From a virus: DNA of 64,000 nucleotides. The DNA lies in IMG/VR virus record IMGVR_UViG_3300046477_000491, positions 1 through 64,000 of that record; one strand, written 5' to 3'. The translations under genes and the position numbers were made by a program. The number at the start of each line of letters is the position of its first letter. Position 1 is the stretch's first letter. Of this stretch, positions 2,367 to 61,916 are shown one piece after another. Under the pieces are notes generated by a model. That model did not search any database and had not been told where the DNA came from. It worked only from the letters and a program-made list of their open reading frames with translations.

Positions 2367-5300
2367 TCACTTCGTGTAGGTCACTCTAAGTTGCGGAGGG
2401 TGGGAGTCGCCAACACCGTTGAAGATTCCGTAGTAGGTCTTGTCGGTGCTGGATCCCAGGTCTCCACCGAGCGTAATTCCACGATAGGGGGTGGACGCGT
2501 TCCAACTGGAATTCCAGGAGGACGGCAGGGTTACCCACTTACCGGCGCCTACCGGCCAGGAGGAAATGGTGTCGTTGACTCCACCCACGCCCGAGAATCC
2601 GGTTGGCTCGTTGGTTCCTGTGAACACGCCGATGTGCGCCGTACCTCCCCCGTTGTAGTACCAGTGGTTGGCGTACAGGTAGACCTCGACCTTTGAGACC
2701 TTCGCCGTGGAGCCCATGTCCGTGTATGGCTGCGTGCCGAAGTAGACCATCGACTTCTGCGTGCCCCAGGTGCTGGAGTAGTAGCCCTGGTACATCGAGC
2801 CATCGGTGTACCCGGCGCTGCCGAACCGGCGGGACCAGACCGCGTTGTACGTCTTGGTGTACGTCTGAGTGGCCGTGACAACCTGACCGCCCGTGTTGTA
2901 GACACCGCCTTCGTGGACCGCCGGGCCGACGTCCTCGACGTAGAAATCTGAGGACTGTCCCGGGCTGTAGTTGCGCATACCCCAGCCGGTAGCGGCGCCT
3001 GCGTGGATGCGCCCGACCCACAAGACCCGGTGAGTGCCCGGCGCGAGCGCCGTGGTGGCGCCGTACAGTCCGCCCGGGTCGGTGGAGCAGACGAGGATGG
3101 CTTCTACATCAACCGTGAAGTCGCTGCCGACGCCGTCGTAAGAGACCCCGAAGTTGCGGCCGAGCATCGTGTCGTTCACCGTCGGGCTGGCACCGTTCGG
3201 TGTGAGGATGGTGCAACCGTTCAGCGTCGTCGTCGTTCCGGACGCTTGGATAGCGTTCTCCAACTCGGACGGGGTGCCACCGCTACCTCCTCCCGTGAAG
3301 TCGAACTGCGAGCGGGCCCGGATGCGGTACATGCGCCCCTCGACTGCCGTGAAGGACAACTCGATCAGGCCGAAGGAGGCATCCGTGTTGCCGGTACCGC
3401 TCATGTAGTAGGTCGAGGAGGTCGGCTTCTGGGTCCAGCCGCGCTCGTAGGTGACCATGCCCCACGGCATGTTCCACAGCAGCGATCCCAGTTCCTGGCC
3501 CTGGTACCAGATCTGGCCGGTCGGGTCGTCGGAGGATGCCCCCGCCGGGCGCTGCGGGGTGAAGAGCGACTTGAAGGTGCCCACGCCGTTGGGGTCGATG
3601 CTTGCTGCTCCGCCCGCGAAGGTGGCGTAGGCGTTGGACGTGGTCAGTTCCGTGCCGAGTGTTCCGTCTGGCCCGAACAGCCGGATACCGGCGGCCGAGA
3701 TGTCCGTGGCGCCGTAGCCCTCGCGCATGACGAGGACGTCGTCCACGCAGATGTAGGAGAACGACGAGGTGGACAGCCCGTACGAGCCGGGGTTCAACTG
3801 CTGGAAGGTGACCCGGCCCCACAGTGCCCCGGTGGGCGCTGTCATCTCGAAGATGTCTTCGGTGTACGCCGCAGCGTTGTAGGTGACGTCGTTGACCCCA
3901 GCCATCTGGTCGGTCCAGGTGACCTTGTCCGTGCTGGTCTCGAAGGTGACGTGCAGGTGTCCGATGCCGTAGTACCAGTACCGGAACATGTACGTCTCCC
4001 CGGCGACGACTGGGAAGGGGTCGCTGGTCGCGGTTGCGGTGCCGGTGTTGTTGACCCCCAGGGTGGCCTTGCCCTGCCCGGAGCGAGCCGGGTACCCGCC
4101 TTGAGCGATCTCGATCTTGGAAACCGTTGTGGCCAGGGTGTTGTCGCTCTGGGTCAGGGTCCAGCCGACGCGGGAGGCGTCCTCGAAGCCCGGGTTGGTG
4201 ACCATGTTGCCGGTCACGGAGCCCAGGGAGAGGTGCGAGGCGTTGACGTTGCCGAGGTTGATGTTGGCGGAGTTGACCTGGCCGGTCTCGACGACCTCGA
4301 TGGTGAACATGTCCATCTCGGCCGCGCCGGATCCGCCGTTGTAGTTCAGGTACAGGCAGGGGCTGATGTACTTCACGTTCTGGTGCAGCGTGGCCGGGGC
4401 GGTCGGATTGTTGGCCGTGTTGCCGCCCGTGGGGGTGGCGGAGACGCCCTTGATGTAGCCCGTGTAGGTCACCCACGCGCCACCCGTGGTCAGGGGGACT
4501 CCCTTGGCCGCGACGTAGTGCTGGCTGGAGACGGCGTTGGAGCCGCTGGTGTTGACCAGGGTCACACCGTCGGACGCGATGCCGGTGACGCCCGCATAGA
4601 AGCCCTGGTTGACGCCTGGGGTGGAGTTGTCGGAGACCTGGCGGACCCGGCAGGTCACCCGGTAGGTGACGTTCGGGTCGAAGGGTATGAGCAGGTCCGG
4701 ACGGTAAGCGCCTTGGACGTACCCGGCGCAGCGCATGACGTAGCCGCCGGAGGCCGCGTCGGTCTTGGATACCGAAGTGAGGGTGCCACCTGCACCTGCG
4801 GCGTTCAGCCACTTGCTGGCGTTCTGGCCGAAGTCGTAGAACTTCTGGCCCACCAGTCCCTGAAGTCCGGCGGAGAACTTGTCGACGGTCATCGTTCCGG
4901 CCTTGATGCTGTTCGCGTCCAGGTTGGTGACGCTTACCAGGCTCGCGTCGATGGTGCCGGTCTTGATCGAGCCGCCGCTGATCGTGGTCGTGGTCGGGAT
5001 GGTGCCGTTGCTCAGTTGTCCGGCAGGGACGGAGACGCCTGCGCCTATGGAGCCGGTGACCGTGGTCGACGACGAGGCGCTGGTAGCGGACGTGGCGGTC
5101 GTTGCCGAGGTAGCGCTGGCCACCGTGCCGCTCACGTTGCCGCCGGTCACGACCAGGTTGGTCGCGTCGATCTGCGTGGCGGTGATCTTCCCGACGGTGA
5201 TCTTGGACGCGTCGATGCTGGCGATGACACCGCTCTGGGCCGTGATCGTTCCGGCCGCGATCTGGTTGGCCGTGATCGTGTTCGCCGCGATCTGGTTGGC

Positions 5301-27175: not shown

Positions 27176-28249
27176 TCACCGTGCCTGGCGCAGCGGCACG
27201 ACGTTGTGCTGGGAGACCATCGAGGTCAGGAACGGCTGGCCCTTCATCGTCTCGTCCCGACGCCTGCGCTCCGAGGACAGGCCCAGGTACCGCTCCGTGG
27301 TCGCCATGGACGAGTGATGCAGCAGCGCCGAGACCGTACGGAGCGCGGCGTCGTAGCCGGACTCCTCCGACAGCTTGTCGAAGTACGCACGCGCCACGGC
27401 CCGGCGCACCGTGTGCGTCCCCTCATAGCGGGTCGGCAGGCCCAGCTTCTCCAAGGCCCCCTTCACGATCTTCTCCGTCCGCTCGACCGGCCGGTCCGGG
27501 TGCCACACGTACGGGGTCCGCTCGTACACCCGCCGCCCCAGGTCCTCGTCGAAGTAGTGCGTCTTGATCTGGTTGCCCGACCGCGAGGGGAAGAGGTAGT
27601 CGTCCGGCCGCAGCGGACGCCCGAGCAGTGCCGCGTACTCCTCGAACCAGATGCGCAGCTCCCGCTCCAGGTCGGCGGTCAGCGGCATCTCGTCCTCCTC
27701 CTTCGTCTTGATCACGGTCACGAAGACCTCACTCTGCGCGAAGTCGACGTCCCCGACCTTCAGGGCTTGCAGCTCGCTCGCGCGGCACGCGGTGTTCACG
27801 GCCGCCGCCAGGTACGCCCGGTGCATCGCGCACTCGGCCTGGTCCAGGAGCTGGAGGAGGATCCCCGGGGCGGGCTGCATCCGCTTGCGCAGCGGCTCGG
27901 GCAGCGGCTCGACCAGGGAGAGGTAGTTGTCCAGCGGGGCGTGTCCGTTGGCGCGGGCGTAGGCGAAGAACACCTTCAGGCGCTTGCGGTAGTGGTTGTG
28001 TGTCGTCGGTCCGACGGCCGCGCGCAGGGCCTGGCCCTTGATGCGGGTGACGTGGATGTCCATGAGCCCGCCGTCGCCGTAGAAGAAGTCCCGGACGAGC
28101 TGCGGGGTGAGGTCGTCGAAGCTGGGGTTGCCGAGGTGGTCGGCGAAACGGGGCAGCAGGCTCTCGTCCGTACGCATGGTGTTGTCGGCCTTGGCCACGC
28201 GCCGGTTGTCCAGGTACTCGTCGATCGCGCTGCGCAGTGCGGTGGTCAC
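27176..28249 (-). CDS. int: Tyrosine recombinase (phage integrase family)
   Basis: 357 residues from a GTG with AGGAGG upstream. The N-terminal 110 residues resemble a SAM-like core-binding domain (ALRSAIDEYLDNRRVAKADN). Catalytic positions are visible: Arg in NTACRASELQAL (about 154), His and Arg in GTHTVRRAVARAYF (about 279-282), His in LLHHSSM (about 310) and Tyr in TTERYLGLS (about 321). It could act as an integrase, excisionase partner or dimer-resolution enzyme. The presence of a second integrase nearby leaves the division of labour open. Confidence 0.9.
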   Translation of the reverse strand: MTTALRSAIDEYLDNRRVAKADNTMRTDESLLPRFADHLGNPSFDDLTPQLVRDFFYGDGGLMDIHVTRIKGQALRAAVGPTTHNHYRKRLKVFFAYARANGHAPLDNYLSLVEPLPEPLRKRMQPAPGILLQLLDQAECAMHRAYLAAAVNTACRASELQALKVGDVDFAQSEVFVTVIKTKEEDEMPLTADLERELRIWFEEYAALLGRPLRPDDYLFPSRSGNQIKTHYFDEDLGRRVYERTPYVWHPDRPVERTEKIVKGALEKLGLPTRYEGTHTVRRAVARAYFDKLSEESGYDAALRTVSALLHHSSMATTERYLGLSSERRRRDETMKGQPFLTSMVSQHNVVPLRQAR

Positions 28250-28335
28250 GCTGCCTCCTGTTGCGGGGTGTCGCTGCGGACCTCAGCGTATCGACGTCAA
28301 GCGACCTTGGCAATCCCCTTCACAAGGTTCGAAGG

Positions 28336-28364
28336 TAGACGTAATCCGGAAGCCGTAGTAGCGT
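28336..28364 (+). promoter_or_regulatory. Rightward promoter with embedded AAGCCGTA half-site
   Basis: TAGACG (28336-28341), 17-base spacer containing GGAAGCCGTAG, and TAGCGT (28359-28364). The expected start point, about 7 bases after the -10 box, coincides with the ATG at 28372, so the message would be leaderless or nearly so. Confidence 0.55.
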
Positions 28365-28371
28365 TCCTGGC

Positions 28372-28524
28372 ATGACGAACCTGACAACGCTTAATACCTC
28401 GGGCTCCAACGAGCCCCAGGTCACCGTGACCCTCACCAACAACCGGATGGAAGACAGCCGCTGGAACCGGCTCCTCACCATCCTCTTCACCCCGCAGGAC
28501 GAAGACGCGCCCGCAGCGAGCTAG
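28372..28524 (+). CDS. Fifty-residue protein of unknown function, possibly leaderless
   Basis: MTNLTTLNTSGSNEPQ, then VTVTLTNNRMEDSRWNRLLTI and an acidic end. There is no SD sequence before the ATG, but a promoter is positioned so that transcription would begin at or next to the start codon; leaderless mRNAs are common in actinobacteria. Codons 7-9 are CTTAATACC, the only copy on the plus strand, and the gene is itself on the plus strand. Position between the two integrases hints at a role in integration or excision control (small excisionase-size protein), but no helix-turn-helix is clear. Confidence 0.6.
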   Translation: MTNLTTLNTSGSNEPQVTVTLTNNRMEDSRWNRLLTILFTPQDEDAPAAS

Positions 28525-28566
28525 CACAACTCCCCCACACAAACGGGCCGTTCCCCATATACTGCG

Positions 28567-28627
28567 CTGATCAACAAGACGGGCCTGCCCACCGCGAGTC
28601 TAGGCGCGGGGACAGGCCCTTGATCAG
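28567..28627. other. Long imperfect inverted repeat before the serine integrase (attP or terminator)
   Basis: Outer arms CTGATCAA (28567-28574) and TTGATCAG (28620-28627) enclose inner arms GGGCCTGCCC and GGGGACAGGCCC. The element ends 21 bases before the serine integrase start. Serine-integrase attP sites are imperfect inverted repeats next to the integrase gene, so this is a candidate; it could equally be a terminator for the upstream 50-residue gene. Confidence 0.5.
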
Positions 28628-28647
28628 TCTGTAAAGGAGACTGAGCC

Positions 28648-30744
28648 ATGGCCAGCATAGCGGCTGAACGCGCCCGCGCACGGGCTGACAAGGTCAACAG
28701 CGCCCGCCCCGGAACCCCCAACAGCTTCAAGTCCGCCACCGCGCTCGCACGCATCGTCAAGCGAGTCGGCGCCTACCTCCGGGTGTCCACCAAGGACCAG
28801 GTCATCGGCTACGGCCTCGACGTCCAGCTCAAGGGCATCCAGGACCACGTCGATGGCAAGAACGCCATCGAGCAGCGCAACGGCACCAACATCGTCTGGG
28901 AACTCGCCGAGATCTACGAGGACGCAGGCGAGTCCGGCGCCAAGCAGGACCGCCCCCAGATGATGCGCCTGGAGCGCGACGTCCGCGACAAGAAGATCGA
29001 CGTCGTCGCCGTCCACAAGTTCGACCGCATCGGCCGCACCGGCCGCGCCTTCTGGCACTGGGTCTGGGCCCTCGAAGACGCCGGAACCTCGATCATCTCC
29101 ACCACCCAGGAGATCGACACCACCACCACCCACGGCGTCACCGCCCTCCAGCAGCTCGCCTCCTTCTCCGAGATGGAATGGCGCACCATCCTGGAGCGCA
29201 CCCAGAACGGCCTCAACATGAAGGCCGCAGCCGGAGGCTGGACCGGAGGCCCCCCGCCGTACGGCTACCGCATCGAGAACCAGGGCAAGCGCGACTCCAA
29301 GCTGGCCCTGGACCCCCAGGAGAGCCGCACCCTCGAACTCGCCGCCCAGCTCATCGTCGAAGGCGGCTACACCGTCGACCGTGCCGCCCACATGCTCAAC
29401 CTCATCGGCCGCCTCACCCGCAAGGGCGTGGCATGGACCGGCTCCAACCTGCGGCACAAATTCCGTAACACCGCCCTGGACGGATTCGTCGTCTACCGCA
29501 ACACCGACGAGGTCGTCAACAAGCGCCGCAAGCGCGCCACCAAGATGAACCCCGACGGCTCCCCCAAGCACGGACCGATGATGATCATCGACACCCCGAT
29601 GGTCTTCGACATCGACCGGCTCATGTCCATCCGTCACGCGCTCCGGCGAAACGGCGGCTGGACCCACTCCGGCAACTACAAGTACCACCCGCTCAGCACC
29701 CGCGTTATCGGCGAATGCGGCGCCCACTACACCGGGGTCCACGTAAAGATCGAGGACCGCCGCACCTACCGCTGCTCCGGCAAGAAGTGCGGCGACTCCG
29801 TTATCGACGCCGTCGCGCTGGAAGAGATCGTCTGGGACAGCCTGAAGAAGTTCCTCGGCGACAAGTCCAAGCTGCGGGAGATCGCCAAGGACTGGGTCAC
29901 CACCGCGCCCGATCACCGGGAGATGTATGTCGCCCGTATCGACGAACTCGAAAAGGAGGTCGCGGGCCTTCTCGAACTCACCACGACGACGCTGGTGAAT
30001 CTCGCAACGGCAGGAGTCGACGCGCGGGCGATCAATTCAGCCGTCGCGAAGATCAACCAGGACATCAGCCTCAAGCAGACGATGCTCGATGACGCCCGGG
30101 ACATGCTGTCGAAGTCCGAGGAGGCTGCACAGCGCGCGGAGGATTTCCAGCGGCTGGTCGAGATCGCCAGCTTCAACCTGGAGAACATCAACGACCGGCA
30201 GAAGTCCGAGATCATGGACCTGCTGGAGATCCAGGTGACGCTTATAGGGCCGGTTCCGCTGGAGCGTCGCTTTGGGCCGGGGTCAGAAATCGAAGCGTGG
30301 CACGTCGAGCGTGGGCGTATGCCGAAGGAACTCACGGACGAGCTGTGGGAGCAGATCAAGCCCAACATCCCGTTCCGGGTCACCAAGCGGAGCCTGGACC
30401 TTCGACTGCTCGTGGAGGGGCTGATCCACAAGGCGCGTACGGGCTGCCCCTGGGATGAGATGCCTGAGCGGTTCCCCGACAAGAACGCTCTGCGCTCCCG
30501 CTGGAGGGCCTGGAGGGGCGGGACGTGGGAGAGCTTCATGGAGCCGCTTCTGGAGGCCGTACCGGTCCGTCCACTGCGTCAGGCGCCGCTTCCGCCCATG
30601 CGGGTGACGGGGAACATCGACCCCCGTCTGGTCGAGTTCACGAACGGCAAGCTGACGAGCCAGGTTCCTCACTCTGGCGCACCGACATCCAGGGGATCGT
30701 TCACGTACATCATCAACGTGGCTGATCTGCGATTGGCCGTCTGA
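28648..30744 (+). CDS. int: Large serine integrase with a C-terminal IS5-transposase-like domain
   Basis: 698 residues. The resolvase domain begins at VGAYLRVSTKDQ with nucleophile Ser47; IYEDAGESGAKQDRP, VHKFDRIGR and FSEMEWRTILERTQNGL complete it. The recombinase domain follows (GGPPPYGYRIEN...), then a zinc ribbon (GECGAHYTG near 355 and YRCSGKKCG near 376) and a coiled coil about 425-500. Residues about 558-630 (ELTDELWEQIKPNIPF, RTGCPWDEMPERFP, RAWRGGTWESF) closely resemble DUF4096, the N-terminal DNA-binding part of IS5-type transposases; a 60-residue tail ends the protein. AAAGGAGACTGAGCC precedes the ATG. It would integrate the phage at attB. Confidence 0.92.
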   Translation: MASIAAERARARADKVNSARPGTPNSFKSATALARIVKRVGAYLRVSTKDQVIGYGLDVQLKGIQDHVDGKNAIEQRNGTNIVWELAEIYEDAGESGAKQDRPQMMRLERDVRDKKIDVVAVHKFDRIGRTGRAFWHWVWALEDAGTSIISTTQEIDTTTTHGVTALQQLASFSEMEWRTILERTQNGLNMKAAAGGWTGGPPPYGYRIENQGKRDSKLALDPQESRTLELAAQLIVEGGYTVDRAAHMLNLIGRLTRKGVAWTGSNLRHKFRNTALDGFVVYRNTDEVVNKRRKRATKMNPDGSPKHGPMMIIDTPMVFDIDRLMSIRHALRRNGGWTHSGNYKYHPLSTRVIGECGAHYTGVHVKIEDRRTYRCSGKKCGDSVIDAVALEEIVWDSLKKFLGDKSKLREIAKDWVTTAPDHREMYVARIDELEKEVAGLLELTTTTLVNLATAGVDARAINSAVAKINQDISLKQTMLDDARDMLSKSEEAAQRAEDFQRLVEIASFNLENINDRQKSEIMDLLEIQVTLIGPVPLERRFGPGSEIEAWHVERGRMPKELTDELWEQIKPNIPFRVTKRSLDLRLLVEGLIHKARTGCPWDEMPERFPDKNALRSRWRAWRGGTWESFMEPLLEAVPVRPLRQAPLPPMRVTGNIDPRLVEFTNGKLTSQVPHSGAPTSRGSFTYIINVADLRLAV

Positions 30745-33649: not shown

Positions 33650-33895
33650 TGGGACCTCCTAGGTCGAGTAGTACTTGGTGACGTAGTAACTGTATGGGTG
33701 ACCAATACGGCTTCGCAAGCAACTTCACGAAACCGGTTGACGTGACCTAGGCCACAAACCGACAAGTAAGTATTGACGATCGGCACATGTAAGGTCCACC
33801 TAACTACCGATCGTTCGGGTACAGAGAGTGAAGAGTCCCAGGACAGCACAAAACCCCGCCTGCCAGTGTGGCAAACGGGGCTGAGTGCGGCCAGG
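33650..33895. other. Intergenic control region at 33.7 kb
   Basis: No gene seen. It holds an AAGCCGTA-type half-site (33704-33716, leftward GCGAAGCCGTATT), a pair of inverse arms ACGATCGG (33776-33783) and CCGATCGT (33807-33814) that may be an operator, and the terminator at 33854-33880. It probably contains the promoter of the leftward operon from the HicA-like gene on. Confidence 0.5.
33854..33880 (-). terminator. Terminator after the AcrVA2-like gene
   Basis: CCCCGCCTGCCA pairs with TGGCAAACGGGG across a 3-base loop, 16 bases after the AcrVA2-like stop codon. Confidence 0.8.
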
Positions 33896-35041
33896 TTAAC
33901 GGCCGATCGTGTTGCGGCGCCGCAGCGGGTCTCCTCGCTGGGCATCCACGGGAACGATCTGCGTGGGTGGATCCACGTCCTCGGGAAGGTCCTCCAGCTT
34001 GGTCCAGTAGGGCTCGATCCACTTGGTGTCGGACTGGGTGCGCTCCCCGGCCTTACCGGGACCGAACCAGACCGTCTTGAAATGCCCGGCCCGGTGCTGG
34101 GGCCCGTACTCGATGCCAGAAGGGATGGAGATGTCGGAGCGAGGGGCGTGGTTGGCGCGCTTGCGGGCGTCGTGCAGCTTGGGACCGATGTACCAGCCGA
34201 CGCGGACCCAGAACGGCTCACGCTCCTTGCGCTGGCGGCCCTTTCCGGTCTTCCGCTTCCGCTGAGCCGTCAGCCACTCCGGGGGCTCCTCGACGTCCCG
34301 GTTGTCACAGCACAGGTAGGTGATCACCGAGAAGGTCTTTTCGAGCAGCGGCCGGAAGGACTTCATCGCCCGGCGCAGCTCCGCGTCGTCGACCACGGCG
34401 CCCTGCCACTGCTCCACGTGCTTGATCGCGTCCTGGGCCGAGAACTTCTCCATGCTGGTGGGCAGCGGCATGAAGTCCCGTGCTCCGCCAGCGATGATCT
34501 CGCCAGTGTCCTCGTCGACCACGTCGTAGAGGTACAGGACGCCAAGGCCCTCGCGCTGCGGGTCGTTGGTGTTGCACAGGGCCCGCCCCACCCATCCGAA
34601 GATCATGAAGGCGCGGACCCAGCCGCCTTCCTTGGTGCCCCGGCCCGGTCCGGCTGGCCAGGGGTCCGGCAGGACCACCATCGGGTTGATGTGCGGGAGC
34701 TGGTCGAAGATGCGACCGGGAACCGTGCCCATCCGGGAGCGGGCCAGCGCGTCGGACAGCTCTTCGTGGAGGTCGTAGACGACGCGGCCGTTGCGCTTCC
34801 ACAGCTCGCACACGCCGATCTCACCCATGAGGTCGCCGACCTGCTCCAGTGTCTGCTTGCTGAACTGGGTCTGGTCGTGAATGTCCCAGTGGAGGGGGAT
34901 TCCCCGGATCAGCCCGTCCAGCCGCCTGGCGATCTTGGGTTCGGCCCGCAGCTCCGTGCTGGCCTCCGTGAGCATGGCGATGTGCTTCATCGCGCGCTCG
35001 TGCGCCTCGCTACCCCTGCGGGTCCTGTCCTGGTGTGCCAT
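33896..35041 (-). CDS. AcrVA2-like protein
   Basis: 381 residues from the ATG with GGGAGGG 4 bases upstream. Order of features matches my recollection of AcrVA2 (Cas12a inhibitor from Moraxella): a segment IFDQLPHINPMVVLP (near residue 110), a beta-rich middle, the helix LLEKTFSVITYLCCDNRDVE (about 240-260), then PFWVRVGWYIGPKLHDARKR and the C-terminal block RAGHFKTVWFGPGKAGERTQ followed by KWIEPYWTK. AcrVA2 lowers Cas12a by acting on its translation; homologs occur on many mobile elements. It stands alone, with its own promoter and terminator, like a moron. The match is by eye and the target in this host is unknown. Confidence 0.72.
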   Translation of the reverse strand: MAHQDRTRRGSEAHERAMKHIAMLTEASTELRAEPKIARRLDGLIRGIPLHWDIHDQTQFSKQTLEQVGDLMGEIGVCELWKRNGRVVYDLHEELSDALARSRMGTVPGRIFDQLPHINPMVVLPDPWPAGPGRGTKEGGWVRAFMIFGWVGRALCNTNDPQREGLGVLYLYDVVDEDTGEIIAGGARDFMPLPTSMEKFSAQDAIKHVEQWQGAVVDDAELRRAMKSFRPLLEKTFSVITYLCCDNRDVEEPPEWLTAQRKRKTGKGRQRKEREPFWVRVGWYIGPKLHDARKRANHAPRSDISIPSGIEYGPQHRAGHFKTVWFGPGKAGERTQSDTKWIEPYWTKLEDLPEDVDPPTQIVPVDAQRGDPLRRRNTIGR

Positions 35042-35076
35042 CGGTCCCTCCCTGACGTGCAAATTCTACGGGCAGG

Positions 35077-35105
35077 AACTTACTCCGGACGTTACGTGTT
35101 GTCAA
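35077..35105 (-). promoter_or_regulatory. Leftward promoter of the AcrVA2-like gene
   Basis: Read leftward: TTGACA, 17-base spacer, TAAGTT, then about 36 bases to the ATG. An A/T-rich stretch (TTAATTAAAAAG) lies upstream of the -35 box. Confidence 0.65.
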
Positions 35106-35143
35106 GCAGTCTTTTTAATTAACTTGACGCCATCGGGCAATAC

Positions 35144-35190
35144 GAAGCCCCGGCCACTGCCTCGGGGGAGGAGCAGTGAGCCGGGGCTTC
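35144..35190 (-). terminator. Strong terminator after the DUF7848-like gene
   Basis: GAAGCCCCGGC (35144-35154) pairs with GCCGGGGCTTC (35180-35190); the loop contains a second CACTGC/GCAGTG pairing. Confidence 0.85.
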
Positions 35191-35240
35191 CATCCGACCG
35201 CCGAGGGGATGATCCACAGCGGCCGGGGGGACCTGCCCTG

Positions 35241-41357: not shown

Positions 41358-41987
41358 CTACTTCACCGTGTAGCGCCCGTAGTAAACGGACTTCGACCAC
41401 GGCGAGTAGTAGTTCACGCCCTTACCGGGGCGCTCCGCTTCCAGCCACTTCGTCGAGGAGACGTAGATCGCCACGTGGTAGACGTGGCCGCTGGAGTCGT
41501 GAACGAAGACCAGGTCGCCCTTCTGGGGCTTCGAGACCTTCGCGCTGGCGTGGTACTGGTCGCTCGCGACGCGGGGAATCGACTTCCCCAGCTTCTGGAA
41601 CGAGTAGTGGGTCAGGCCGGAGCAGTCGAAGCCCGCCGACGGCGAGGATCCGCCCCAGACGTACCGCGTGCCGATGTACTTGGCGGCCTGGTTGACGATC
41701 TTCGTGCCCGACGAGGTCGAGCTGGTCGTCGAAGCGGGCTTGGCAGGTGCCGGGGTGGCCGATGCGGCCAGGAGGATCCGCTCTCCCGGGTAGATCCGGT
41801 TGGGGTTGGATATGTGGTTGATGGACGCGAGGTGCTGATACGTCGTCTTGTGGGATTTCGCAATCCCGCTCAGTGTGTCTCCGCTTTTCACGGTCACGTA
41901 ACTGGCGGCTGCTTCGGCGACCGAAGTCGCTATCGGCGATACGGCCAGTGCTCCCGCGAGAGCGATTCCAGCGATCCTCTTATTCAT
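41358..41987 (-). CDS. Secreted endolysin or cell-wall hydrolase, LysM + NlpC/P60
   Basis: 209 residues. Residues 1-27 are a Sec signal peptide ([20 protein letters not shown], cut likely after AEA). A LysM domain (29-73, [20 protein letters not shown]) binds peptidoglycan; after a Ser/Thr/Pro linker, an NlpC/P60 peptidase has Cys122 ([10 protein letters not shown]) and His171 (HVYHVAIYV). Phage endolysins usually lack a Sec signal, so this is either a secreted endolysin or a host-like wall enzyme acting in the lysogen. It lies between two tRNA pairs. Confidence 0.9.
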
Positions 41988-42154
41988 GATGCACTCCGCA
42001 CGCCTGCGAAATTAGGTGACGGGCTCGGGTAAGTGCTGTTCCCTACCACAAATGTTTCTGCGGATTCGCCCCAGTACTGCGTTTCGGTCTCCCGCCCCTG
42101 TTCAGGGTTGATTGCAGTTTTTGTCCAGGAACAGGGCTCGGCGTCTGGACAAAG

Positions 42155-44073: not shown

Positions 44074-44504
44074 GAGCGGGATGTACCCCTCCTACCAGAC
44101 GCACGCGGGATCTGACGGTTTCGTGTGCGTAATCAGCTCGTGGACCTGGAGAGACCCTGGATCATGGGGAGGCGGGCGGCTGCTGCACGGCACACCGCGT
44201 GGGGATGATCTTTGCCCTTGCGATCACTGGCTTACCAGGGAGCAAACCGTAGCACCGGGAGGTCAACCGGAACAGGCGGCTCCGTGACTTGCGCAACCTT
44301 GTTGCTTTACTTTTCAAGCGGGTTGCTTGACCAGCTCTTTACTAAATATGCTACAACCCGTGCAGTTACCCCGGGTTACATGTACCTGGAACCTACGGTT
44401 GCGTAGCTGTGGAGGTTCTGTATGGTGACCCAGCTCACATTGGTAAATTCGATCAGCCGACAGATATGCGTCGACAATTTGTCAAGCTACCACGAGATAT
44501 GACT
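44074..44504. other. 430-base stretch without a convincing gene
   Basis: It contains a leftward TTGACA (44480-44485, reverse strand) that may begin the promoter of the membrane protein gene, A/T-rich patches (TTTACTAAATATG near 44338), and short plus-strand frames that lack ribosome-binding sites. RBS GGAGGGG for the membrane protein gene is at its left end. Confidence 0.5.
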
Positions 44505-44536
44505 TGACCCCGCTACGGGATGCCGTAACGGGGTCA
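44505..44536 (-). terminator. Terminator of the RNA-repair operon
   Basis: TGACCCCGCTACGG and CCGTAACGGGGTCA form a 14-bp stem with one mismatch, 39 bases after the kinase/phosphatase stop. Confidence 0.8.
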
Positions 44537-44574: not shown

Positions 44575-45495
44575 CTAGAAGGCCCCGGGGGCCACTTGGA
44601 GGGTCCGCAGGCCGAGAAGGCGCCACATCTCGACCACCTGGTCACGGTCGTCGAGGACCATCCACACGTTGTAGCGGCCCAGGATCTCCTGCCGGTAGAT
44701 CTCCTCCTTCACGATCGAGTCCTTGCGCATGTCGTACTCGGCGCGCATCAGCAGCGGCGACAGCGAGGTCCACTCCCCCACGTGCTGCACCAGCCAGGCC
44801 CGGGTCCGCTTGTAGGCCCGAGCGTCGCGGCCGGACACGAAGATGATCTCGGCGCCCGCGTCCCGCAGCGTGTTCACGAGGTCGATGACGTCCTGGTGCG
44901 CCGTGTCCTCGTCCACCCGGTCCCAGTCGAAGGGACTGCGGTCGGCCATCTTGGCCAGCGTGCCGTCCAGGTCCACCAGCACGGCGTGCGGGCGGTCAGG
45001 GAGCAACGCAGGGGGGTCGGCAGGCTTGGGGGCCAGGTACTTCTCGTACATGTCCTTGATGACCTTCTCGCCGACGCTCTTCTCCCGCTTCAGGTCGCGG
45101 CGGACGCAGGTATTAAGTGCCACGTCGGTGAAGTCCTTGACGAAGAACCGGGCTCCCCGGCTTTCCGCCAGCCGCTCCAGGCGCTCCTCGTGGTACGGGT
45201 TGAGGTTGGTGTCGGCGACGATCACGCTGACGCCCTGGAGCAGGAACATCTCCACGAGCGCGTCGCGGGCCTTGACGACCTGCCGCTCGTTCTTGCCGTG
45301 CCAGCGGTCGGCGTGCAGCATCGCCCGCAGGTCGTCCTTGCACACGATCACGACGGAGCCGGGGATGGCCTTGAGGACCTGCTCGCGGGCCCACGTCGTC
45401 TTGCCGGAGCCCGGCAGGCCCTTGGTCATGGTCAGCGTCGTCACGGGCTTCTCCTTCGTCTTCTTCGGTCCGCAGCACAGGCATTTCACGGGCAT
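44575..45495 (-). CDS. Polynucleotide kinase/3-prime phosphatase (T4 PseT-like)
   Basis: 306 residues from the ATG at 45495 (longer readings fall inside the upstream gene). The kinase domain has the P-loop GLPGSGKTTW (about 26-35) and a DTNLNPYHEERL acceptor-side motif; the HAD phosphatase domain has VLVDLDGTLAKM (about 170), IIFVSGRD and VWMVLDDRDQVV. The kinase-then-phosphatase order is that of T4 Pnkp, which heals tRNAs cut by host anticodon nucleases. Near the N-terminus is a CLCCGPKK cysteine cluster. A ligase gene lies 295 bases upstream in the same operon. One CTTAATACC at codons 127-129. Confidence 0.9.
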   Translation of the reverse strand: MPVKCLCCGPKKTKEKPVTTLTMTKGLPGSGKTTWAREQVLKAIPGSVVIVCKDDLRAMLHADRWHGKNERQVVKARDALVEMFLLQGVSVIVADTNLNPYHEERLERLAESRGARFFVKDFTDVALNTCVRRDLKREKSVGEKVIKDMYEKYLAPKPADPPALLPDRPHAVLVDLDGTLAKMADRSPFDWDRVDEDTAHQDVIDLVNTLRDAGAEIIFVSGRDARAYKRTRAWLVQHVGEWTSLSPLLMRAEYDMRKDSIVKEEIYRQEILGRYNVWMVLDDRDQVVEMWRLLGLRTLQVAPGAF

Positions 45496-45791
45496 CGGCA
45501 GCACCCGTCGCAGCCGTGCAGGCCCTCGTAGGGGTTGTAGTCCTCGCCCTGCATCATTCGCTTGTAGGCGAGGTCGTCCGGGTCGGGGTGTCCGACGCCG
45601 TGGGAGCACATCCGCTCCATCAGGGCGCGGTCCATGCGGAAGTGCTGGGGCCAGTCGGCCATGTGGTGGTCGGAGGGGTTGTGTACGCAGCAGTGGCGGC
45701 CGATGCAGTCCTTGCGGGGGTGGGCGAGGAGTCGTTCCCCGCCCACCAGTTCCGCCGCCTCGAACCAGCCGCCGAGGTCGTCGGGCTCCAT
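45486..45791 (-). CDS. Cys/His-rich small protein in the RNA-repair operon
   Basis: 101 residues from the ATG overlapping the ligase stop (ATGA). It has many potential metal ligands: KDCIGRHCCVHNPSDHHMAD, HFRMDRALMERMCSHGVGH and a CDGCCRCP end. It looks like part of a family of phage proteins seen beside RNA ligases, but I cannot name it. The end overlaps the kinase gene by 10 bases. Confidence 0.65.
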   Translation of the reverse strand: MEPDDLGGWFEAAELVGGERLLAHPRKDCIGRHCCVHNPSDHHMADWPQHFRMDRALMERMCSHGVGHPDPDDLAYKRMMQGEDYNPYEGLHGCDGCCRCP

Positions 45792-46897
45792 CAGGCCGCG
45801 TCCTCCGAGAGCGTCTGGAACGGCTTCTCGTACGTCGGCCGGACCCGCTTCCAGACGTCGGCCGTGATGTCCTTGCCGCCGTAGATACGGAACAGCAGAC
45901 CCGGGTACGGCGTCTCCTGGGCGAGCAGCGCGAACTCCTTGCGGCGCTTCTGTGCGTCCGTCTCCGGCCGCCGCAGGCGCTTGATGATCCAGGCGTAGTC
46001 GTCCATGATCTGGGCCTTCTCGCGGGCGAAGTCGCCCTCCAGGCGGTACACCTGCTGGTGGACCCAGGTGTAGAACTCGTCCGGGACGCGGTCGATCCAG
46101 GAGTCGATGCCCTGCCCGTTGGCCAGCGCGTCCCACACGGAGAGGGTGGAGACGTTCGTCAGGATGCGGTGCAGGCGGACGTACTCGTCGTACTTGAACT
46201 TCACCCGGGTGTCGCTCCAGGGGAAGCGGACGACGAAGCCCTCCAGGTTGGACTCCTGCACGTTGCGCATGTAGTCCAGGACGTCGGGCATCGTCTTGAA
46301 GCCGACCGGCTCGTTGACCGGGCCCGGCCAGTCGTAGGTGCCGAAGGGGAGCGTCTTGCCGGTCGCGGTGTCGATGACGGCGAGGAGGACCAGTTCGTCC
46401 AGGCCCTGGTAGTCCACCACGATGCGGTTGGCCGCGTAGACGATCTCGAAGAGATACGTCAGGCCGAGGATGGGCTCGAACTTCGGGTACCGGCTCTGAA
46501 CGGCTTCCGTGGCGTGCAGCGCCTGGGGGCTGGTGAAGGAGCCCCGCGTGGCGATGCGGAACTCCCCGGTATTAAGCGTGTAGCCGACGCCCAGAGAGCC
46601 GTCCCACTTCACGTACCCCTCGACCGGCTGCGTCAGGAGCGTGGAGTGCAGTTCGGGGACCTGGTCCCAGTTGAAGAACTTCTCGAACGGGCGGGAGACG
46701 ACCTCGTTGGTGACACTGTCGACGATCAGGCCGCGCGTCTTCTTCGTGACGTCGTTCCACATGCCCTCGTACTGGGCCTTGTTCGTGTAGTTGAGGATGG
46801 CCAGCGGAGCGTCGGGGTGGTTCTGCCTGCGGACGTAGCCCTTTTCGAGCATGTCCTTGAGCAGGCTCTGGGACATGATGCTCATGAGGTTGGTCAT
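45791..46897 (-). CDS. RNA ligase, T4 Rnl1-like
   Basis: 368 residues from the ATG with GGAGG just upstream. The nucleotidyl-transfer motif I is KWDGS with Lys97; motif IIIa-like TYLFEIVY, motif IV EGFVVRF and motif V VKFKYDEYVRLH follow in order, and a helical C-terminal domain of about 120 residues matches Rnl1. It would join RNA ends healed by the neighbouring kinase/phosphatase, most likely cut tRNA anticodon loops. One CTTAATACC occurs at codons 108-110. Confidence 0.9.
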   Translation of the reverse strand: MTNLMSIMSQSLLKDMLEKGYVRRQNHPDAPLAILNYTNKAQYEGMWNDVTKKTRGLIVDSVTNEVVSRPFEKFFNWDQVPELHSTLLTQPVEGYVKWDGSLGVGYTLNTGEFRIATRGSFTSPQALHATEAVQSRYPKFEPILGLTYLFEIVYAANRIVVDYQGLDELVLLAVIDTATGKTLPFGTYDWPGPVNEPVGFKTMPDVLDYMRNVQESNLEGFVVRFPWSDTRVKFKYDEYVRLHRILTNVSTLSVWDALANGQGIDSWIDRVPDEFYTWVHQQVYRLEGDFAREKAQIMDDYAWIIKRLRRPETDAQKRRKEFALLAQETPYPGLLFRIYGGKDITADVWKRVRPTYEKPFQTLSEDAA

Positions 46898-46919
46898 GGA
46901 TCCTCCGAGGTGTGGTGGG

Positions 46920-47147
46920 TCAGAGACGCTGGTCGAGTGCCGTGACCACGCGCTTGGCGAAGGTCTCGTAGAACTCGTCGGGGAGGTGGTCGATGGCGAA
47001 CCACTTCCGGGCCTCAAGGGCGACGATCTCTACGGCCTCGGCGCGCTTCTTGCCCTGCCGCTCCAGCCAGTCCCTCGCGGCGCTGACGTTGGGGATGGCC
47101 AGGTGTCCGAGGTTCAGGGTGGGGCGGTCGTCCTTCGTGGCGGTCAT
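46920..47147 (-). CDS. Small helical protein
   Basis: 75 residues (MTATKDDRPTLNLGHLAIPN...). Helical with AARDWLERQGKKRAEAVEIV and LPDEFYETFAKRVVTALDQR. It is the second gene of the RNA-repair operon, 22 bases before the ligase. No family recognised. LPDEFY also occurs in the ligase (VPDEFYTWV), perhaps by chance. Confidence 0.6.
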   Translation of the reverse strand: MTATKDDRPTLNLGHLAIPNVSAARDWLERQGKKRAEAVEIVALEARKWFAIDHLPDEFYETFAKRVVTALDQRL

Positions 47148-47149
47148 GT

Positions 47150-47563
47150 TCAGCCCTTCTTCGCGGCCTTCTTGTTCTTGCGCTTGTTCTTGGTCTTCTT
47201 CGCGGCCCGGCGGTCACGCTTGTCGAGGTCGGTCTCGACGTCGCTCAGGGCCTCGTCCAGCTTTTCGATGAAGAGGTAGATGGCGCCCTTGAGGCGGTCG
47301 GCCTTCGCGCGGGCGTTCTCCAGGTCCTTGCGGAGCTGGGCGCGGTCTTCCTCGGTGCCGGTCTGGCCGTAGACGCCGAAGTCGAGGGTCACGCTGCGGG
47401 AGCAGTCCTGGATCTGGAGGGTGGCGCCGAAGTCGAGGTAGTCGTCGCTGCTGTCACCGTCGTTGATCTCCGCGAGCACCGCACCGAGGCCATGGTGTCC
47501 CTGGTTGTTCAGGAACTCGCGGATGTAGAGGCGGCGCTGCTCGTCGGTGGCGGTGGTGCTCAT
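47150..47563 (-). CDS. Acidic protein with a lysine-rich tail
   Basis: 137 residues from the ATG with GAGGAG 6 bases upstream. The N-terminal 65 residues may form a small beta unit (DYLDFGATLQIQDCSRSVTL), followed by a coiled coil (RAQLRKDLENARAKADRLKG) and a C-terminal run of Lys/Arg (about 22 residues) suited to nucleic-acid binding. First gene of the RNA-repair operon. Function unknown. Confidence 0.6.
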   Translation of the reverse strand: MSTTATDEQRRLYIREFLNNQGHHGLGAVLAEINDGDSSDDYLDFGATLQIQDCSRSVTLDFGVYGQTGTEEDRAQLRKDLENARAKADRLKGAIYLFIEKLDEALSDVETDLDKRDRRAAKKTKNKRKNKKAAKKG

Positions 47564-47637
47564 GCGGTGCTCCTCGGTTCTGCGGTTCTGTGGTGCCGGG
47601 GTGACCCCGACATCGAGAAACCTATAACGAAGAAGAC

Positions 47638-47658
47638 GTAATCTCAAGCCCGTAATCG
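47638..47658 (-). promoter_or_regulatory. Promoter region with ATTACGGGCTT before the RNA-repair operon
   Basis: Read leftward: GATTACGGGCTTGAGATTAC with a second ATTACGTCTTC nearby, then TTATAGGTT. TTGAGA and TAGGTT are 17 bases apart and fit a promoter. Confidence 0.5.
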
Positions 47659-47723
47659 TGAATCTGTTCAACGTAACCCGTATGACGTGGGTCACACCTC
47701 AAGGGGGTTGCGCACACGTGCAA

Positions 47724-47749
47724 AAGACCCCCGCCGTAGCAGGGGTCTT
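47724..47749 (-). terminator. Terminator after the 36-residue membrane peptide
   Basis: AAGACCCC (47724-47731) pairs with GGGGTCTT (47742-47749), 17 bases after the preceding stop. Confidence 0.75.
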
Positions 47750-47765
47750 CGCAGGTCAGGACAGG

Positions 47766-47876
47766 TCAGTTACCGGACGCCACCAGCAGCGCGTGCCCGA
47801 CGTAGACGGCCGCAGCCGCGTCCAGCAGGAGCGCCACGATCCACACGGCCTCCGGAACATCACGGAACCACTTCAT
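47766..47876 (-). CDS. Thirty-six-residue membrane peptide
   Basis: MKWFRDVPEAVWIVALLLDA, then AAAVYVGHALLVASGN: a single transmembrane helix of about 25 residues. The ATG overlaps the stop of the nucleotidyltransferase gene (TGAATG). Such tiny membrane peptides can be toxins, exclusion factors or membrane-protein regulators. Confidence 0.6.
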   Translation of the reverse strand: MKWFRDVPEAVWIVALLLDAAAAVYVGHALLVASGN

Positions 47877-48527
47877 TCAGATCTTCCTCACGTAGTTGAT
47901 GAAGTCCTGGAGCCGGTCCGTACGCGGCTGCGCCGGAAGGATGCCGACCCGGTCGTTGAAGACGTCGAACGCCTTCCAGAACTCGGCCTCGATCTGCTCG
48001 CCCGACATCTCGTCGAACGCCCAGTAGAAGTCCGGGTCCGGCACACGGACGGTCAGCGTCCCGAACTCCAGCAGTTGCTGGCCCTGCCGCAGCAGCCGGA
48101 AGCAGTGCCGGGCGTGCTTGGCCACACGCTTCTGCCTGGCCTCGTTGGCCAGCTCCTGCTTGATCCGCTTGATCTGCCCCATGGCGTACCCGCCGTACGC
48201 GGAGCGCACGTAGCCCTCGGACAGGAAGTCCTCGCGGATGTCGACCAGCCACTCCCCCTCCCAGGACTGCTCCTCGTACTCCTCCAGGTACATCAGGTCC
48301 ATGATCGTCGGGTTGCACTTCAGCGCGAGGTTCACGTACTTGCCGACCTCGTGCAGGGTGACGTCCGGAGCCGTGGTCACCAGCGAGTCCTGATGCTGGG
48401 AACCGATACGGAAGAACTCCGGAGTGGGACGGATGAAGATGCCGAGCCGGTCGGTGTCCGAGCCGGGCCGGGCGAGGCCGAAGGCAGTGCTGCCCACGAC
48501 CCCGCTCAGCAGGATGTTGGTCCCCAT
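47877..48527 (-). CDS. RlaP-like nucleotidyltransferase (RNA-repair associated)
   Basis: 216 residues from the ATG overlapping the upstream stop. The start GVVGSTAFGLARPGSDTDRL carries the polymerase-beta motif G-S...D-x-D (Asp24, Asp26), followed by GIFIRPTPEFF and the helical part KYVNLALKCNPTIMDLMYLE and SAYGGYAMGQIKRIKQELAN. This is the pattern of the RlaP/YcgL family, which is found with RNA ligases in bacterial and phage RNA-repair loci. It may add nucleotides to RNA ends. Same side of the genome as the ligase and kinase operon, 300 bases away. Confidence 0.8.
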   Translation of the reverse strand: MGTNILLSGVVGSTAFGLARPGSDTDRLGIFIRPTPEFFRIGSQHQDSLVTTAPDVTLHEVGKYVNLALKCNPTIMDLMYLEEYEEQSWEGEWLVDIREDFLSEGYVRSAYGGYAMGQIKRIKQELANEARQKRVAKHARHCFRLLRQGQQLLEFGTLTVRVPDPDFYWAFDEMSGEQIEAEFWKAFDVFNDRVGILPAQPRTDRLQDFINYVRKI

Positions 48528-48982
48528 CAGAACCAGTAGTCCTCGGACGGGTCGTTGTCGCGGCCGTCCTCCTCGTAGCGCTCGGCCGCCTCCTCGTACG
48601 TCGCCAGGGCCTCCTCGACAGACCGGCCCCACGTCATACCGGCGTCCTGCTCGGACTGCACGATCTCCAGCAGCGCCCGCGTCTCGTTGTCGGCCTTGAC
48701 GAACTCCGTGTCGATCAGCGTCCCCGCCGAGGCGTACACGTTCTTGTCCTGGGCGAACATGTCGTCGTACGTGACGCCCTTATAGGCCAGCACCTGGCCG
48801 ACGATGCACGACGGCGCCTTCGTGGCCGGGTCGAAGTACGCACACAGCGCTGCATCGTCGATGGTGAGCATCCTGTACACGTGGTCGGCGCCCCGCTCCT
48901 CGACCGCGCGGGCCAGCAGCGTCTTCGCCTCGTCCAAGGTGATCTCGACGGCCTCGTGGGAGGCCGGGGTATTAAGCGTCAT
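48527..48982 (-). CDS. Acidic hypothetical protein with N-terminal CTTAATACC
   Basis: 151 residues (MTLNTPASHEAVEITLDEAK...). Codons 3-5 are CTTAATACC, the same position as in the scaffold gene. The middle CAYFDPATKAPSCIVGQVLA resembles small phage proteins of unknown role seen in actinophages (with a conserved C-I-V-G-x-V). Coupled to the nucleotidyltransferase by ATGA overlap. Confidence 0.65.
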   Translation of the reverse strand: MTLNTPASHEAVEITLDEAKTLLARAVEERGADHVYRMLTIDDAALCAYFDPATKAPSCIVGQVLAYKGVTYDDMFAQDKNVYASAGTLIDTEFVKADNETRALLEIVQSEQDAGMTWGRSVEEALATYEEAAERYEEDGRDNDPSEDYWF

Positions 48983-61653: not shown

Positions 61654-61683
61654 AAGCTAGTCGTCGTCATTATGTCTTGTCAA
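61654..61683 (-). promoter_or_regulatory. Leftward promoter at 61.7 kb
   Basis: Read leftward: TTGACA, 18-base spacer, TAGCTT. The same -10 form as the 54.56-kb promoter. Confidence 0.6.
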
Positions 61684-61697
61684 GTAGTCTCAGGAAT

Positions 61698-61916
61698 TTA
61701 CTTGACTGCGGTGTGCCTGCGCTGGACGATGCGCCCCTTGGGTCGCTCCTCGCCCTCGAACGTCCAGTTGGGCGGGAAGACAGGGACGACCGAGACGTTG
61801 GTCATGGTCCCCCGCAACTCCCCGGCCCGGCGGTCGGCGCTGGTCTTGTCGTAGCTCACGACGGACACATGCGCGTGGCCATTCGAGTCGGTCCACAGGA
61901 CCTTGAAGTTCTCCAC
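61698..61916 (-). CDS. Small hypothetical protein
   Basis: 72 residues from the GTG with GGAG 7 bases upstream. MENFKVLWTDSNGHAHVSVV and SYDKTSADRRAGELRG form a strand-strand-helix unit, with WTFEGEERPKGRIVQ after it. Function unknown. Confidence 0.6.
   Translation of the reverse strand: MENFKVLWTDSNGHAHVSVVSYDKTSADRRAGELRGTMTNVSVVPVFPPNWTFEGEERPKGRIVQRRHTAVK

Follow-up and report, generated by a model that had tools for sequence, protein, structure and literature searches.

The DNA analysed here is a stretch of 64,000 nucleotides (the window) from a virus record with a total length of 76,753 bases. Genes for sheath, baseplate, tape measure, capsid, portal and terminase show it to be DNA of a contractile-tail phage. 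Also encoded are MazG, two integrases, a regulator of the DUF5753 repressor type accompanied by a small partner gene, and a set of RNA-repair enzymes. The terminase shares 63-65% identity with those of the Streptomyces phages Alone3, LuckySocke, pSt2308, GiJojo and BRock, and because of this kinship the host is most likely Streptomyces. In Alone3, MazG and then the terminase follow within about 1.6 kb, and the annotation of that interval contains no integrase, no repressor and no AcrVA2-like gene of the kind described below; the window phage resembles a temperate relative of the Alone3-type isolates with an added lysogeny segment. When the AcrVA2-like protein was compared with the proteins of all phage records, nothing matched it, in these isolates or in any other. 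Several other parts of the window are worth recording in their own right. At 27176-30744, a tyrosine integrase (minus strand) and a large serine recombinase (plus strand), enzymes of different types, adjoin one another, and a close match to the serine recombinase is missing in several related phages. Inside a cluster of four tRNAs lies a c-di-AMP (ydaO) riboswitch (41987-42126, minus strand, E 6e-10), immediately 5' of the gene for a LysM-NlpC/P60 cell-wall hydrolase (41358-41987), so that a lysis-type gene of the phage is apparently under second-messenger control. The RNA-repair set at 44575-48632, composed of a Pnkp-like kinase/phosphatase, a T4-type RNA ligase and a RlaP nucleotidyltransferase, has phage tRNAs nearby and is a possible defence against anticodon nucleases.

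The locus under study is a single gene on the minus strand, lying between two hairpins, with the following features:

33852..33882, minus strand: downstream hairpin with a TTTT end, the terminator of the gene (dG -34 for 33842-33892, z -5.5), with an equivalent in the gene-less related contig L072
33896..35041, minus strand: AcrVA2/FinQ-superfamily protein of 381 aa (coding signature; phrog_6160, E 3.6e-12; hhalign probability 98-99.5%, controls clean; Z 17.1 between model and 7ci2)
34004..34102, minus strand: C-terminal signature, residues 314-346 (PQHRAGHFKTVWFG...KWIEPYW), from alignments and column conservation; superfamily form PHxRRxHxHxYWxGP....KWxxPxxVN
35077..35105, minus strand: promoter TTGACA-N17-TAAGTT, with the -35 box identical and the -10 box TARGTT in 8/8 relatives, while the spacer sequence diverges
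35101..35128, minus strand: inverted repeat GTCAAG-N16-CTTGAC over the -35 box, a putative operator with three exact copies in the window
35144..35190, minus strand: upstream hairpin, an insulator or the terminator of the preceding gene (dG -38.4 for 35135-35196, z -4.65), with an equivalent in L072

The open reading frame at 33896-35041 has a strong coding bias (GC 0.67/0.46/0.89 at the three codon positions) and begins at a conserved ATG at 35041, before which the relatives carry the Shine-Dalgarno-like GGGAGGGACC; an alternative TTG start, giving 388 rather than 381 aa, is less likely. An initial annotation of this DNA, made from its letters alone, had compared the product with the anti-CRISPR AcrVA2 on the strength of two features. 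The first, a C-terminal G-H-F/W-x-x-x-W-x-G and K-W-x-x-x-x-W pattern, is found as GHFKTVWFG at residues 319-327 and KWIEPYW at residues 340-346. The second, an internal L-x-x-x-Y-L-C motif, reads S-V-I-T-Y-L-C (residues 238-244), so that its Y-L-C part stands and its leading L does not. The superfamily signature PHxRRxHxH..W.G....W..P occurs in the window protein as PQHRAGHFKTVWFG...KWIEP, and the columns kept in all phyla are W81, Y89, P108, P116, Y242-C244, G282 and G286, followed at the C-terminus by R317, H320, G327, W341 and P344. Since the motifs first noticed are among the most conserved columns of the superfamily, they are not there by chance.

The window protein is a genuine member of the AcrVA2 superfamily. 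Its sole PHROG match is phrog_6160, which also matches the AcrVA2 of Shewanella phage Y11 (1.1e-58), and the Y11 protein in turn matches the crystallised AcrVA2, PDB 7ci1, at 1.5e-72. In profile-profile comparison (hhalign), the close actinobacterial relatives reach the AcrVA2 and FinQ profile at 98.4% (E 4.5e-15), and in a broader set the actinobacterial profile reaches the non-actinobacterial relatives at 99.5% (E 1.2e-22), with reversed or column-shuffled targets scoring at most 0.7%. Sequence identity to AcrVA2 and FinQ is 13-20%. Searches of Pfam, NCBIfam and PADLOC gave no usable match to the window protein, and neither did Pfam and NCBIfam for AcrVA2 and FinQ themselves. A single-sequence search of the PDB found nothing, and a profile of nine close relatives reaches 7ci1 at an E value of 0.7 only. 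A 26-sequence profile that matches 7ci1 at 1.5e-68 was discarded as evidence, being circular because AcrVA2 relatives are inside it. Direct PDB searches being weak or empty, the homology rests on the PHROG match, the controlled profile-profile comparison and the comparison of folds, all three of which bear out the likeness proposed at the outset.

For the fold, two structure models were compared with known structures. Model 1 was built from an alignment of 22 actinobacterial-family sequences that contained no AcrVA2 sequence (pLDDT 69.9), and against the PDB it found AcrVA2 alone (E 4e-5, Z 12.9). Model 2 was built from a 60-sequence alignment including AcrVA2 relatives (pLDDT 82.6, pTM 0.79), and it matches the AcrVA2 crystal structure 7ci2 with a Foldseek E of 5.8e-8 and a Z of 17.1 over 276 residues at 4.4 A, with the next unrelated chain at Z 2.6. 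Weak matches to carbonic-anhydrase folds (Z about 2.5) were dismissed as background. The window protein is thus predicted to have the AcrVA2 fold, and because the superposition spans residues 12-348, the likeness is not confined to low-complexity segments.

The superfamily extends well beyond anti-CRISPRs. When plasmids were searched with the Y11 AcrVA2, 601 records matched, more than 300 of them from E. coli, and the main group was FinQ of IncI-type plasmids, matched at about 1e-14 over 96% of the query in hundreds of records. AcrVA2 and FinQ share KRPHIRRGHWHxYWxG, and FinQ carries KRPHIRRGHWHTYWTG, with KRPHIRRGHWHGYWQG as its AcrVA2 counterpart; the homology to FinQ covers AcrVA2 along its whole length. 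The window family profile reaches FinQ alone at 95.3% (E 2e-8). The FinQ gene at 2465-3553 of plasmid record L022 is annotated as about 260 aa, its homologous frame has 363 aa, and judging by this comparison the annotation seems to place the start about 100 codons downstream of the true one. Within the literature searched, FinQ and anti-CRISPRs are nowhere mentioned together; the link may have been noticed earlier elsewhere.

Relatives closer to the window protein are proteins of Streptomyces plasmids (36-39% identity over nearly the full length), Streptomyces genome contigs and 26 viral contigs; the nearest lie on large Streptomyces plasmids and prophage-like contigs. In a tree of 83 sequences, the window protein falls in an actinobacterial clade (0.988) with the large Streptomyces plasmid proteins, AcrVA2 proper forms a distant clade (1.0), and FinQ is placed elsewhere. 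Filing the protein as AcrVA2 itself is therefore not supported: with its separate place in the tree, it is not an AcrVA2 ortholog. Elsewhere in the superfamily, relatives in phages of Moraxella, Pasteurella and Lactobacillus are found next to an integrase or an attachment site, and homologs are present in large Erwinia and Dickeya phages. Divergence was also computed between the window allele and phage alleles 57-67% identical to it. The most divergent segments are residues 4-75, 133-200 and 201-250 (46-69% identity) and the least divergent is residues 301-330 (67-93%), a pattern consistent with a divergent body that reads the target and a common C-terminus that serves as effector or faces the ribosome. 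Natural alleles of this one phage gene, 56-94% identical, offer material for mapping the target-reading against the message-destroying parts.

The gene is a moron, as the initial annotation had it, and is inserted between two terminators. Of the 24 related contigs that are informative, 23 have it, in most cases at an unchanged position close to the repressor and the integrase, and the exception, L072 (IMGVR_UViG_2799112265_000002), provides a natural empty site: the flanking genes and both hairpins are kept, the AcrVA2-like gene is absent, and the distance between the hairpins is 33 nt against about 1.26 kb where the gene is present. The terminator that had been placed after the single gene is the stable hairpin at 33852-33882. 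In related contig L033, DNA identity falls to 71-79% across the gene, with most neighbouring segments at 88-100% and a second dip over the repressor; in L004 it is the gene that stays close (88-94%) and the upstream neighbours that drop to 68-71%. From these two patterns, the allele is exchanged independently of its neighbours. Other genes of about 170-210 aa lie beside the AcrVA2-like gene in three related contigs (L036 4699-5280, L040 2813-3439 and L031 7151-7669), which makes the spot an accessory-gene site. The extra genes at this spot had no match in PADLOC, and the site may host further anti-defence genes.

The proposal that the gene has its own promoter holds in one respect and needs qualifying in another. 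The promoter TTGACA-N17-TAAGTT, conserved in the relatives, occurs once in the window with none expected, and a strict sigma-70/consensus scan of the window called neither this promoter nor the terminator. However, the inverted repeat over its -35 box, GTCAAG-N16-CTTGAC, has exact copies at 35101-35128, 44481-44508 and 61679-61706, where 0.04 would be expected in the window, and stands at the equivalent position in most relatives with the 16-base spacing kept. The three copies are probably operators of a phage regulon; since the repeat is common to this promoter and two other phage sites, the promoter may be under the control of a phage regulator.

What, then, might the protein do? AcrVA2 reads the N-terminal peptide of Cas12a and lowers Cas12a mRNA in a translation-dependent manner (PMC13131331), and FinQ stops transcription at several points in the F tra operon, an effect described as transcription termination and not mRNA decay (PMC8744291). 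As both characterised relatives lower the mRNA of their target, the family appears to be a general weapon with which mobile DNA silences genes, and the distribution of the superfamily over phages and conjugative plasmids favours a rival-element or host defence gene as the target. Our leading interpretation, to which we give about even credence, is that a temperate Streptomyces myophage carries, as a moron, the gene for an AcrVA2/FinQ-superfamily silencer of a competitor's gene or a host defence gene, and not of Cas12a. The gene would probably be expressed from the prophage; its product, by analogy with AcrVA2, would recognise a peptide of one particular protein during the synthesis of that protein; the shared C-terminal module would couple this recognition to loss of the mRNA; and the outcome would be the silencing of one gene or operon, presumably belonging either to a competitor, as FinQ silences the transfer operon of a rival plasmid, or to the defences of the host. 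Members of the superfamily would then be target-specific silencers, directed at transcripts of competitors or of the host's defences and built from a variable body joined to a C-terminal module that is conserved. Against this interpretation, target-binding or effector function can change at 13-20% identity, FinQ is described as a transcription terminator, and the effector step of AcrVA2 is itself hypothetical. Moreover, nearly every sampled member of the phage group has the gene, which may thus be a regulator for the phage itself and no weapon in an arms race, and the shared operator suggests that it is integrated into the phage programme.

A narrower possibility, which we regard as somewhat unlikely though worth serious consideration, is that only rival mobile elements (other prophages, linear plasmids) are silenced and not host defences, in a form of superinfection or fertility control like that of FinQ. 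The homology to FinQ, the many plasmid-borne relatives, and the location of the nearest ones, which lie on prophage-like contigs and large Streptomyces plasmids, all speak for it; yet homologs are also found in the large phages of Erwinia and Dickeya, for which anti-defence or host takeover is equally likely, and the copies on Streptomyces plasmids have DNA methylases nearby, as is typical of anti-restriction regions. It is improbable, in our judgement, that the AcrVA2 fold has been reused as a plain peptide-binding protein acting without any effect on mRNA: what structures show of AcrVA2 is that it binds a peptide (7ci2; PMC13131331), but the C-terminal basic and aromatic motif is the part most conserved across phyla, and an mRNA-level effect is common to two distant members. 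Less probable again is regulation, through the same nascent-chain mechanism, of one of the phage's own genes, for instance in lysogeny maintenance. In its favour are the occurrence of the gene in 23 of the 24 relatives, usually in one place close to repressor and integrase, and the operator that it has in common with two other phage sites; on the other side, one relative does without the gene, its allele exchanges independently of the neighbours, and the superfamily spans unrelated phages and plasmids.

The initial annotation suspected a target other than Cas12a, and the genome counts fit this suspicion. A search for Cas12a found it in 0/7 genomes carrying relatives, in 0/70 genomes of the genus of one Streptomyces carrier, and in 1/396 genomes of Actinomycetota, the single match indicating that the search works. 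That match, in L171, contains several in-frame TGA codons, a sign of sequencing errors or of a contaminant contig with recoded stops. The natural target is probably not Cas12a, and a Cas12a inhibitor like Moraxella AcrVA2, shielding the phage in those Streptomyces or Actinomycetota that might have type V-A CRISPR, is very improbable: the AcrVA2 fold and signature and the one Actinomycetota match speak for it, but the protein belongs to a separate clade, the carriers and the carrier's genus gave no Cas12a, and the pocket residues for the docked Cas12a peptide (PMC10846135) are not conserved, in a region where the alignment is uncertain.

AcrVA2 is the first reported case of mRNA loss triggered by a nascent peptide in bacteria, and it has been regarded as an anti-CRISPR. 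The homology of FinQ and the Streptomyces phage protein to it suggests that the mechanism may be general and retargetable, and would tie a decades-old conjugation-inhibition phenotype to a mechanism of the AcrVA2 type. More tentatively than for the window gene itself, we propose that AcrVA2, FinQ and the actinophage clade belong to a single, widespread family of mRNA silencers guided by nascent peptides, which phages and plasmids would use against each other and against host defences. If so, what AcrVA2 does to Cas12a would be just one specialised instance, and the "transcription termination" by FinQ at several tra sites would be co-translational destruction of mRNA. The AcrVA2 target motif LSKT (with S/T and K/R variants) was sought in the F tra proteins and did not occur near any N-terminus except as LTKS at position 3 of TrbB, and we therefore claim no FinQ target.

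Three known systems invite comparison. AcrVA2, from Moraxella phages (7ci1/7ci2) and Shewanella phage Y11, is like the window protein in its fold over residues 12-348, its carriage by phages, its C-terminal PHIRRGHWH..W.G signature and its WLC/YLC helix; the window protein, known here from sequence and model, differs in its low identity (13-20%), its separate clade and potential hosts that are nearly without Cas12a. FinQ, the fertility inhibition protein of IncI plasmids, is homologous to the window protein over most of its length, has the same C-terminal signature and is likewise the product of an accessory gene of a mobile element, but it is plasmid-borne and acts on the tra operon of the F plasmid, whereas the window protein is phage-borne. 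The hypothetical proteins encoded on large plasmids of Streptomyces (e.g. NZ_CP108678, NZ_CP134606) are 36-39% identical to the window protein and in one clade with it; unlike the phage gene, they lack the phage operator and stand beside methylases, DprA, DNA ligase or a metallopeptidase.
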